From Rhizobium sp. Q54 (lineage in GTDB: Bacteria; Pseudomonadota; Alphaproteobacteria; Rhizobiales; Xanthobacteraceae), in contig CAMAWF010000003.1 in NCBI GenBank assembly GCA_945861895.1, forward strand, positions 1 to 32,797: a stretch of 32,797 nucleotides of DNA. Reading direction: 5' to 3'. The notes beneath the pieces were generated by a model. The model was not told where the DNA came from. It ran no database searches and was given only the letters and a program-made list of their open reading frames with translations. Below, one piece after another: positions 3,829 through 12,993 of this stretch. Positions within the stretch are counted from its first letter, which is position 1, and each line of letters begins with the position of its first letter. The translations under genes were made by a program, and so were the position numbers.

Positions 3829-4623
3829 ATGCTGGTCGACAGCCATTGCCATCTGGATTTTCCGGATTTCAAAAGCGAGCTTGAAGCCGTGGTCGCGCGC
3901 GCGGGCGCGGCCGGGATCGAACGCATCGTCACGATCTCGACCCGCGTGCGCCGGCATGCCGAACTCATCGCCATCGCCGAGCGCTTCGCGCAGGTCTACT
4001 GCTCGGTCGGCACCCATCCGCATCACGCCCATGAAGAGCTGGACATCACGGCGGACGATCTTGCGGCGCGCAGCAGGCATCCCAAGGTGGTGGCGATCGG
4101 CGAAGCGGGCCTCGATTATCACTACGACAACAGCCCGCGCGATGCGCAAGAAAAAGGGTTCCGCGCGCATATCGCGGCGGCGCGAGCGACGCAGTTGCCG
4201 CTGGTCATCCATGCGCGCGAGGCAGACGACGATATGGCGCGCATCCTGGAGGAAGAAACCGGGAAGGGCGGCTTCCCCGCCGTGCTGCATTGTTTCACCG
4301 GCACGCGCGATCTCGCCATGCGCGGCGTCGCGCTTGGGCTCTTCGTGTCGTTCACCGGCATTCTGACATTCAAGAATTCCGATGCGCTGCGCGCGATTGC
4401 CGCCGAGCTGCCGGCCGACCGCATCCTGGTGGAAACCGATGCACCCTATCTCGCGCCCGGCCCATATCGTGGCAAGCGCAATGAGCCGGCCTATGTGGTG
4501 GAAACGGCGAAGACGCTGGCGGCGGTGCGCGGCGTGACGTTCGATGAGATAGCCCGCCAGACCACGGAAAATTTCTTCCGGCTGTTCAATAAAGTGCCGC
4601 GTACATTGGCAAAAACCGCATGA
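3829..4623 (+). CDS. tatD: TatD family metal-dependent hydrolase (DNase)
   Basis: TatD-family proteins are TIM-barrel amidohydrolases with reported 3'-5' exonuclease or DNase activity. I chose the ATG at 3829 (264 residues), one base after the metG stop, because the product then starts M-L-V-D-S-H-C-H-L-D-F. This puts the metal-binding H-x-H pair at residues 6 and 8, where it belongs; the frame remains open upstream into metG but adds only non-homologous residues. Further family signatures are V-G-T-H-P-H-H, I-G-E-A-G-L-D-Y-H-Y, H-A-R-E-A, L-H-C-F-T-G and the C-terminal V-E-T-D-A-P-Y-L-A-P. The TGA overlaps the next ATG by 4 bp. The natural substrate is not known from sequence. Confidence 0.95.
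   Translation: MLVDSHCHLDFPDFKSELEAVVARAGAAGIERIVTISTRVRRHAELIAIAERFAQVYCSVGTHPHHAHEELDITADDLAARSRHPKVVAIGEAGLDYHYDNSPRDAQEKGFRAHIAAARATQLPLVIHAREADDDMARILEEETGKGGFPAVLHCFTGTRDLAMRGVALGLFVSFTGILTFKNSDALRAIAAELPADRILVETDAPYLAPGPYRGKRNEPAYVVETAKTLAAVRGVTFDEIARQTTENFFRLFNKVPRTLAKTA
4261..4268 (+). promoter_or_regulatory. KOPS-type octamer GGGNAGGG
   Basis: GGGAAGGG on the plus strand inside tatD, pointing right toward the dif-like site about 1.3 kb away. Confidence 0.4.
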
Positions 4624-5417
4624 CCGCCAAATTCACGATACTCGGATGCGGCTTTTCCGGCGGCGTGCCGCGTCCGGGGCTCGGCTGGGGCGCGTGCGAT
4701 CCCAATAATCCCAAAAACCGCCGCCGCCGCTGCTCGTTTTTGGTGGAGCACAGCCAAGCCGCCGGGACGACCCGCGTGTTGGTCGATACCTCGCCCGATT
4801 TGCGCGAGCAATTGATAGACGCCAAGGTCGATTGGCTCGACGGCGTGCTGTTTACGCACGCGCATGCCGACCACACTCACGGCATCGACGATCTGCGCGC
4901 GCTGGTGATCCACCGCCGCCGGCGCATCGACATCTATGCGGATGAGGCGACGGGCGCCCTGCTGCACAAGCGGTTCGGCTATTGTTTCCAGACGCCCCCT
5001 GGCAGCGACTATCCCCCGATCCTCAACGCGCATTCGCTTGCCGCCGGAGCGCCGCTGACGATCGCCGGGGAGGGCGGCGCAGTCGCTGTGCTGCCGGTGC
5101 TGCAAGGACACGGCGACATTCCCTCGATCGGATTTCGCTTCGGCAATGTCGCCTATTCGGCCGACCTCAAAAACCTGCCGCCCGAGAGCGTGGCGGCGCT
5201 CGCCGGACTGGACGTTTGGGTGGTCGATGCCTTGCGCTACGCGCCGCATCCGAGCCACTTCAGCCTCGACGACGCGCTGGACTGGATTGCGCGGCTCAAG
5301 CCCAAGCGGGCGATCCTGATCAACCTGCACAGCGATCTCGATTACGAGGTTTTGCGCGCCAGGCTGCCCGCGGGGGTCGAGCCGGGCTTCGATGGGCTCA
5401 GTTTTTCTATGAGCTAA
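4620..5417 (+). CDS. MBL-fold metallohydrolase, PhnP-like
   Basis: This 265-residue metallo-beta-lactamase-fold enzyme has T-H-A-H-A-D-H, giving the metal ligands H80, H82, D84 and H85, followed by T-H-G-I-D-D-L-R. The N-terminal L-G-C-G-F-S-G-G-V-P-R-P and the G-W-G-A-C-D-P segment match the PhnP-like branch, whose best studied member is the phosphoribosyl 1,2-cyclic phosphate phosphodiesterase of the phn operon. No phosphonate genes are nearby. Instead it is coupled to tatD by a 4-bp overlap, a pairing often seen in alphaproteobacteria, so its substrate here is probably a housekeeping cyclic phosphodiester and remains unproven. It is the last gene of the plus-strand run. Confidence 0.88.
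   Translation: MTAKFTILGCGFSGGVPRPGLGWGACDPNNPKNRRRRCSFLVEHSQAAGTTRVLVDTSPDLREQLIDAKVDWLDGVLFTHAHADHTHGIDDLRALVIHRRRRIDIYADEATGALLHKRFGYCFQTPPGSDYPPILNAHSLAAGAPLTIAGEGGAVAVLPVLQGHGDIPSIGFRFGNVAYSADLKNLPPESVAALAGLDVWVVDALRYAPHPSHFSLDDALDWIARLKPKRAILINLHSDLDYEVLRARLPAGVEPGFDGLSFSMS
5067..5074 (+). promoter_or_regulatory. KOPS-type octamer GGGNAGGG
   Basis: GGGGAGGG on the plus strand inside the MBL-fold gene, pointing right toward the dif-like site about 0.5 kb away. Confidence 0.4.
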
Positions 5418-5587: not shown

Positions 5588-5615
5588 ATATTCCATAATA
5601 TGTCTTATGCGAATC
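5588..5615 (-). other. dif: dif-like XerCD recombination site
   Basis: Read on the minus strand, the 28 bp consist of a XerC-type arm GATTCGCATAA (5605-5615), a 6-bp spacer GACATA (5599-5604) and a XerD-type arm TTATGGAATAT (5588-5598). The XerC arm fits the proteobacterial consensus RNTKCGCATAA at every position. The XerD arm keeps TTATG but differs from TTATGTTAAAT at three positions. The 11-6-11 spacing is exactly that of dif. XerC and XerD resolve chromosome dimers here, driven by FtsK. Supporting context: most genes to the left run plus and most to the right run minus, and GGGNAGGG octamers on both sides point to it. The alternative is an attachment site left by a dif-targeting element. 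Confidence 0.62.
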
Positions 5616-5682: not shown

Positions 5683-6501
5683 ATGAAAGCTTCCCGTGAC
5701 ATCGCCCGGCTGATCGAGATCATGGCGGCCTTGCGCACGCCGGGCAGCGGTTGCCCGTGGGACCTGGAGCAAACGTTCAAGACCATCGCGCCCTACACCA
5801 TCGAGGAAGCCTATGAGGTGGCCGACGCCATCGCCCGCGGCGATCTGGGCGACCTTAGGGAAGAACTCGGCGACCTTTTGCTGCAGGTCGCCTTCCACGC
5901 CCGCATGGCCGAGGAACAAGGCGCATTCGATTTCGGCGGCGTGGTCGAGAGCGTGACCGCGAAGCTGGTGCGCCGTCACCCGCATGTTTTCGCCGATGAG
6001 GAGGGCCGTACCGCCAAGGCCGTCGAGGGCCTTTGGGAGCGCATCAAGGCTGAGGAAAAGGCCGCGCGCGGGCGCAACGAGGATGCAGGCGCCCTCGCCG
6101 GCGTTCCCCTCGCCCTGCCCGCACTCACCCGTGCGCACAAATTGCAGGAGAAGGCCGGCAAGGTCGGGTTCGACTGGAACGATCCGAAGGCGGTTCTCGC
6201 CAAAATTCGCGAGGAAGCCGACGAGATCGAGGCCGAACTTGCAGCCGGCAGCGAGAAAAAAGCGGCAGCGGAAGTCGGCGACCTGCTGTTCGCCGTGGTC
6301 AATCTGGCGCGCCATCTGCACGCGGACCCGGAGGCGATCTTGCGCGCCGCCAACCGCAAATTTGTGCGGCGCTTTGAAGCGATCGAGCGCGCGCTTGCGG
6401 CCCGCGGCAAGTCGCCGCGCGAAGCAACCTTGGCCGAAATGGATGCGCTCTGGGACGAAACAAAAGCCGCCGAGAAATTGACGAAAGAGAAATCCGACTA
6501 G
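5683..6501 (+). CDS. mazG: Nucleoside triphosphate pyrophosphohydrolase MazG
   Basis: MazG hydrolyses nucleoside triphosphates to monophosphates and pyrophosphate, clearing abnormal nucleotides and, in E. coli, modulating (p)ppGpp. The 272-residue protein has the usual two MazG domains: an N-terminal one with C-P-W-D near the start and E-E-A-Y-E-V-A-D-A-I followed by E-E-L-G-D-L-L, and a C-terminal one with E-E-A-D-E-I followed by E-V-G-D-L-L-F-A. The linker carries the R-R-H-P-H-V-F-A-D signature. It starts at ATG 68 bp beyond the dif-like site and converges on hflX; the two genes share the palindrome CTAG (6498-6501) as overlapping stop codons. Confidence 0.95.
   Translation: MKASRDIARLIEIMAALRTPGSGCPWDLEQTFKTIAPYTIEEAYEVADAIARGDLGDLREELGDLLLQVAFHARMAEEQGAFDFGGVVESVTAKLVRRHPHVFADEEGRTAKAVEGLWERIKAEEKAARGRNEDAGALAGVPLALPALTRAHKLQEKAGKVGFDWNDPKAVLAKIREEADEIEAELAAGSEKKAAAEVGDLLFAVVNLARHLHADPEAILRAANRKFVRRFEAIERALAARGKSPREATLAEMDALWDETKAAEKLTKEKSD
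6113..6120 (-). promoter_or_regulatory. KOPS-type octamer GGGNAGGG
   Basis: GGGCAGGG on the minus strand (CCCTGCCC on plus) inside mazG, pointing left toward the dif-like site about 0.5 kb away. Confidence 0.4.
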
Positions 6502-12922: not shown

Positions 12923-12993
12923 CCGAATTGCGACAAAAGCGCGGCGCAAAACCGCAAGCTGGGTTAACTGAGGTGCGAGACGGCCGCTGCGGT

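Follow-up and report, generated by a model that had tools for sequence, protein, structure and literature searches.

The window, by which we mean the whole 32 797 nt stretch analysed here, comprises the first 32.8 kb of the 99.2 kb contig C3 of the Rhizobium sp. Q54 draft genome (3.77 Mb in 194 contigs). Close to its left end, in a gap of 265 bp between an MBL-fold hydrolase gene and mazG, lies a 28 bp sequence resembling the sites at which the recombinases XerC and XerD act (Table 1). A first-pass annotation, made from the letters alone, had read here an 11-6-11 bp succession of arm, spacer and arm on the minus strand at positions 5588–5615, located between the stop of the MBL-fold gene (5417) and the start of mazG (5683), and both the architecture and the intergenic position are borne out by the sequence. 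Its view that the XerD arm carries three changes has to be corrected: the arm has the form published for Bradyrhizobium japonicum, already known in the order according to Table 1 of the survey of Carnoy and Roten (PMC2731167), and since the two are identical it is not degenerate.

Table 1. Features of the MBL–mazG region, in window coordinates
Feature	Position	Strand	Sequence, setting and basis
Proposed dif, 28 bp	5588–5615	−	GATTCGCATAA GACATA TTATGGAATAT, read from 5615 to 5588; sequence, pattern search and published B. japonicum arms
XerC-binding arm (assigned by similarity)	5605–5615	−	GATTCGCATAA; mazG side
Central hexamer (strand-exchange region)	5599–5604	−	GACATA; sequence
Putative XerD-binding arm	5588–5598	−	TTATGGAATAT; MBL side; sequence and invariant GAA outside the queried core
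MBL-fold hydrolase gene, left neighbour	4620–5417	+	265 bp gap to mazG
mazG (nucleoside triphosphate pyrophosphohydrolase), right neighbour	5683–6501	+	TIGR00444, 303.9 bits
Nearest left KOPS	5067–5074	+	GGGGAGGG; toward dif, within the MBL-fold gene; −535 bp from dif midpoint
Nearest right KOPS	6113–6120	−	CCCTGCCC on the plus strand; toward dif, within mazG at ALP codons; +511 bp from dif midpoint

RESULTS

Composition, gene order and partner proteins

The GC content of the site is 28.6 %, that of its gap 46 % and that of the surroundings about 62–63 %, so that the site is both intergenic and below the genome in GC, as is expected of a chromosomal dif. The strand distribution of the neighbouring genes is as previously described: the six genes identified to the left all read on the plus strand, and 18 of the 21 identified to the right are on the minus strand, the other three being mazG, ispDF and cinA. 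Open reading frames on the right were scanned mainly on the minus strand, followed by 20 plus-strand frames as a check, of which only cinA was recognised; the family search gave no family for four of the right-hand minus-strand frames. The genome also codes for the proteins with which a dif works. Assigned by the better-scoring of two models, with both scores slightly under the curated equivalog cut-offs, there is one XerD-like protein (322.8 bits to TIGR02225 and 260.4 to the XerC model) and one XerC-like protein (312.2 bits to TIGR02224 and 233.6 to the XerD model), along with one FtsK gamma domain of 97.2 bits, which is over its cut-off.

Uniqueness of the site in the genome

The window contains a single match to the dif-type pattern at up to three mismatches; 100 shuffled versions gave a mean of 0.05, with a match in five of the 100. 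Scored against the published B. japonicum arms the site reaches 22 of 22, the runner-up on the 99.2 kb contig reaches 14, and the best score in each of five simulated genomes (3.77 Mb, first-order) was 16–17. It is the sole match without mismatch to TTCGCATAA-N6-TTATG in the draft genome, a search that covers the 194 contigs and not the assembly gaps. Five other places had one or two mismatches to the core pattern, the same number as in a reversed-pattern control. No second, better dif, such as the first-pass annotation had suggested looking for, was found in the 194 contigs of the draft assembly.

Conservation of the core and of its neighbourhood

When the core was sought in 80 genomes, including that of Q54, 70 gave a match at no or one mismatch, some of these matches being chance-like. 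The exact 20 bp core was found in 35 of the 42 genomes of the same genus and a variant of it in two (G003 and G025); one (G041) had a single chance-like match, and in four that are 69–85 % complete (G006, G009, G036 and G038) there was no match to the core. Among named genomes, mostly Hyphomicrobiales, at least 119 stretches also carry the exact core, among the matches listed those of Pseudolabrys, Pseudorhodoplanes, Rhodoplanes, Bosea, Methylobacterium and Phreatobacter; these named loci overlap in part with the same-genus panel (locus L066 and genome G020, for example). Within the core the letters cannot vary, since the search itself asked for them. In an alignment of 109 rows whose flanks diverge, made up of the window and 108 named loci among the matches listed (112 rows had flanks of 150 bp), conservation was down to background level a few bases beyond the 28-mer, and the GAA that lies just outside the queried core in the XerD arm was invariant.

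The gap between the MBL-fold gene and mazG, which had been singled out for comparison with related genomes, holds the site in many relatives. Both genes were within the fetched stretch at 62 of the 119 named loci, and at all 62 the site lay between them with its XerC arm toward mazG; in the same orientation a further 25 loci had the MBL-fold gene only and 16 mazG only, and 16 had neither, with gaps between site and flanking gene mostly below 1 kb and 6.6 kb at most (all among the matches listed). Fourteen of the 17 same-genus loci fetched had both flanks as in the window, L043 had the MBL-fold gene only, L054 had the site upstream of mazG in inverted orientation, and L056 was a chance match. 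Another 37 genomes, from elsewhere in the family and order, were sorted by hand: 14 had both flanks as in the window, up to 9 kb off (G047); 12 had one such flank (in G059 mazG was elsewhere nearby); two (G057 and G077) had the site upstream of mazG but inverted; three (G054, G055 and G070) had neither gene within about 8–10 kb; and six either lacked a convincing dif or offered insufficient sequence.

Five of the same-genus loci (L046, L048, L052, L053 and L058) have extra sequence with open frames between the site and either the MBL-fold gene or mazG, with gaps of 0.7–2.9 kb, and the edge of dif may therefore gather inserts.

Position relative to the replication terminus

The first-pass annotation placed the replication terminus here and expected a change in GC skew within tens of kb of the site. 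Skew on the Q54 contig is +0.008 over the left 5.6 kb and −0.015 over the right 93.6 kb; the leftward side is hardly testable in this genome because the window starts the contig. In two genomes of the genus that are each a single contig, G004 and G010, the expected change is seen. Skew goes from positive to negative between 2.25 and 2.475 Mb in G004 (spaced 20 kb samples), where the site is at 2.406 Mb, and changes between 0.84 and 1.12 Mb in G010 (spaced samples), where it is at 1.061 Mb. In a contiguous 400 kb around the site the cumulative G−C maximum fell 35 kb to the left of it in G004 and 28 kb to the right in G010, that is, tens of kb off the site and not exactly on it. The distance from dnaA to the site is 2.34 Mb of 4.52 Mb in G004 and 2.61 Mb of 5.59 Mb in G010, so that the two lie roughly opposite each other.

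On the origin side of G010 the sign of the skew changes at about 3.92–4.2 Mb (spaced samples), a few hundred kb from dnaA at 3.67 Mb, and the origin of this genome may therefore lie elsewhere than at dnaA.

Polarity of KOPS around the site

Copies of the KOPS motif GGGNAGGG converge on the site. Counted as forward and reverse, there are 3 and 0 to the left and 0 and 10 to the right on the Q54 contig (Fisher test, 0.0035), 26 and 4 to the left and 2 and 27 to the right in G004, and 16 and 1 to the left and 2 and 31 to the right in G010. The best change point of polarity, defined as the position that minimises misoriented KOPS, brackets the site in all three sequences, at −535 to +511 bp on the Q54 contig, −577 to +453 bp in G004 and −5773 to +482 bp in G010. 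At 78 named loci, among the matches listed, 178 of the 190 KOPS within 3 kb of the site aim at it; this fraction of 0.94 ranks fourth of 56 patterns (median 0.83), and KOPS is the most numerous of them. The corresponding rank is fourth of 56 in G004 (0.90 versus a median of 0.70) and first of 56 in G010 (0.94 versus 0.74); on the Q54 contig, whose left side has only three KOPS, it is first of 53, tied at 1.0 with at least three patterns of four copies. Other G-rich octamers are thus polarised too, mostly less so, and part of the KOPS signal is therefore general strand bias.

The right-hand KOPS nearest to the site falls on the codons for a conserved ALP motif of MazG. At the 78 named loci that have both mazG and dif, among the matches listed, the protein motif xLPALxRA carries the KOPS complement in 41 of 50 occurrences, compared with 110 of 451 for ALP tripeptides across long frames, spurious ones among them, a difference that hinted at selection on synonymous codons. 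At 29 mazG loci from other alphaproteobacterial families it does so in nine of 18 motifs; 12 of the 18 begin with Ala, and all nine are among these 12. Split by the distance of dif, the complement is present in four of five Ala-first motifs with dif within 3 kb versus five of seven without a convincing dif that close. At 15 non-alphaproteobacterial loci none of seven motifs carries it, most of them using the CCG proline codon. A link of such selection to dif is accordingly unsupported, KOPS being about as frequent in alphaproteobacterial mazG without a nearby dif, so that codon usage may explain the motif; we regard it as a weak lead.

Apparent association of dif with mazG in other alphaproteobacterial families

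The class panel held 57 genomes besides that of Q54. Of these, 38 had mazG and 34 were searched for dif, G084, G085, G100 and G128 being left out for partial or weak mazG matches. In 19 of the 34, mazG has a candidate dif no more than 30 kb upstream on its own contig, with the XerC arm toward the gene; 15 of the 19 are within 3 kb, the furthest is at 27 kb, and three genomes (G088, G093 and G120) have further candidates elsewhere. The candidate in G080, a nearly symmetric sequence 2.1 kb upstream of mazG, is inverted, as is that in G101, 146 kb from mazG; in G082, G086, G106 and G114 the candidates are on other contigs than mazG. No dif, or none convincing by eye, was found in nine of the 34 (G081, G083, G091, G097, G104, G109, G119, G125 and G130). 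In a count free of judgement, 14 genomes had a mismatch-free candidate, 13 of them near mazG in the orientation of the window and one on another contig. Weaker dif-like sequences occur near mazG in G104, G119 and G130; shuffled sequence also matches at that threshold (about 0.14 matches per locus, 12 in 326 kb), and some of these may therefore be due to chance.

DISCUSSION

Nature of the site

We conclude, with a probability of about 0.96, that the site is the chromosomal dif, which would work by the standard XerCD–FtsK mechanism, as the first-pass annotation had proposed. This conclusion is drawn because both arms are of a published form, the core is unique in the draft genome and conserved, the partner genes are present, KOPS converge on the site and reverse their polarity across it, and the position is that of the terminus in two relatives, with reversal of skew within tens of kb and dnaA roughly opposite; in many relatives, too, it is held in the gap between the MBL-fold gene and mazG. 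In the Escherichia coli system XerC and XerD bind the arms of dif, FtsK guided by KOPS activates XerD, and recombination resolves chromosome dimers. By analogy, the mazG-side arm would be occupied by XerC and the MBL-side arm by XerD. FtsK would be loaded and directed by KOPS and, at cell division, move along both chromosome arms to dif, where its gamma domain would activate XerD, and recombination by XerCD across GACATA would then convert a dimeric chromosome into two monomers. The dif fixes both the terminus and the polarity of the arms of this draft chromosome.

The idea that a palindromic, AT-rich intergenic sequence has come to look like a dif by chance draws on the composition of the gap, which is AT-rich relative to its surroundings, but we give it practically no credence: an arm score of 22 of 22 against a simulated genome-wide best of 16–17 rejects it, and the exact core in 35 of 42 genomes of the genus and in no fewer than 119 named-genome stretches refutes it. 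An attachment site (attL, attR or a remnant) of some XerCD-dependent integrative element, for instance an IMEX phage or a genomic island, was the alternative that the first-pass annotation had itself offered, and we consider it very unlikely. About a quarter of proteobacterial dif sites adjoin mobility genes, according to the survey's own figures (PMC2731167), and one IMG/VR contig with a terminase gene has the exact 20 bp core. Against this, window and draft genome have a single copy in place of two flanking ones, the 265 bp gap holds no inserted gene, those neighbours that could be identified belong to the core gene set and keep their order, many relatives show the site with short gaps on either side, and a search of 50 697 phage records gave no match to 80 % of a 38 bp query. 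With one copy, core syntenic flanks and a gap free of insert, we reject a dif-using mobile element in the window. That the site is a real dif, but one belonging to a secondary replicon instead of the main chromosome, has a precedent within the class in Brucella chromosome II, which has its own dif in Table 1 of the survey (PMC2731167); it is nonetheless extremely improbable here, given that holB, metG, hfq, ntr, pyruvate dehydrogenase and enolase genes are found on this contig and that in G004 and G010 the dif shares a single contig with dnaA.

The viral contig with a large terminase gene (L377, IMGVR_UViG_3300006893_000047) has the exact core at 12964–12983, with a different outer XerD arm (TTATGGAGCCA). 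It may represent either a phage using the XerCD of its host to integrate at dif or a prophage junction. Among the best 80 of 97 viral loci with related terminases, this starting contig included, it is the only one with the exact core, and one other locus has the core with one mismatch.

Significance of the dif–mazG arrangement

The Q54 chromosomal dif is in itself an ordinary site of a known kind, and the new part, a modest addition, is its apparent class-wide association with mazG. In its own order and in the class, dif is commonly found upstream of mazG, its XerC arm turned toward the gene, with inverted or displaced exceptions (L054, G057, G077, G080 and G101). The terminus region is usually regarded as fluid in its gene order. 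Our current working hypothesis, which we hold to be probably correct, is that the alphaproteobacterial dif has not been free to move and has been kept upstream of mazG, XerC arm facing the gene, since an early ancestor of the class, and that mazG therefore marks the terminus. Descent explains the association most simply; the age of the arrangement, and any selection for it, we infer. The question raised is whether the position of dif is held by selection or is merely old gene order. A dif beside mazG, with its orientation mostly kept, would make it simple to locate dif and to give draft alphaproteobacterial assemblies their orientation. Such anchoring, if true, would be at odds with the 2009 survey, which describes dif motifs as without apparent specific genetic environment (PMC2731167). 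Our search of the open-access literature found no paper linking dif with mazG.

Comparison with known dif sites

The bias of GGGNAGGG motifs towards dif has a counterpart at the terminus of another alphaproteobacterium, Azorhizobium caulinodans, in a comparison that concerns the genome-wide distribution of the motif in that species and not its dif sequence (PMC2443382). The Q54 site shares the core architecture TCGCATAA ... TTATGGAA with the dif of Agrobacterium tumefaciens, Brucella melitensis chromosome I and Mesorhizobium loti as given in the survey (PMC2731167), whereas the outer letters of the arms and the centre differ. The closest likeness is to the dif of B. japonicum USDA 110, GATTCGCATAAGGTATATTATGGAATAT in Table 1 of Carnoy and Roten (PMC2731167): this site is likewise intergenic and low in GC, its central hexamer is GGTATA where that of Q54 is GACATA, and both of its 11 bp arms are identical to those of the Q54 site.
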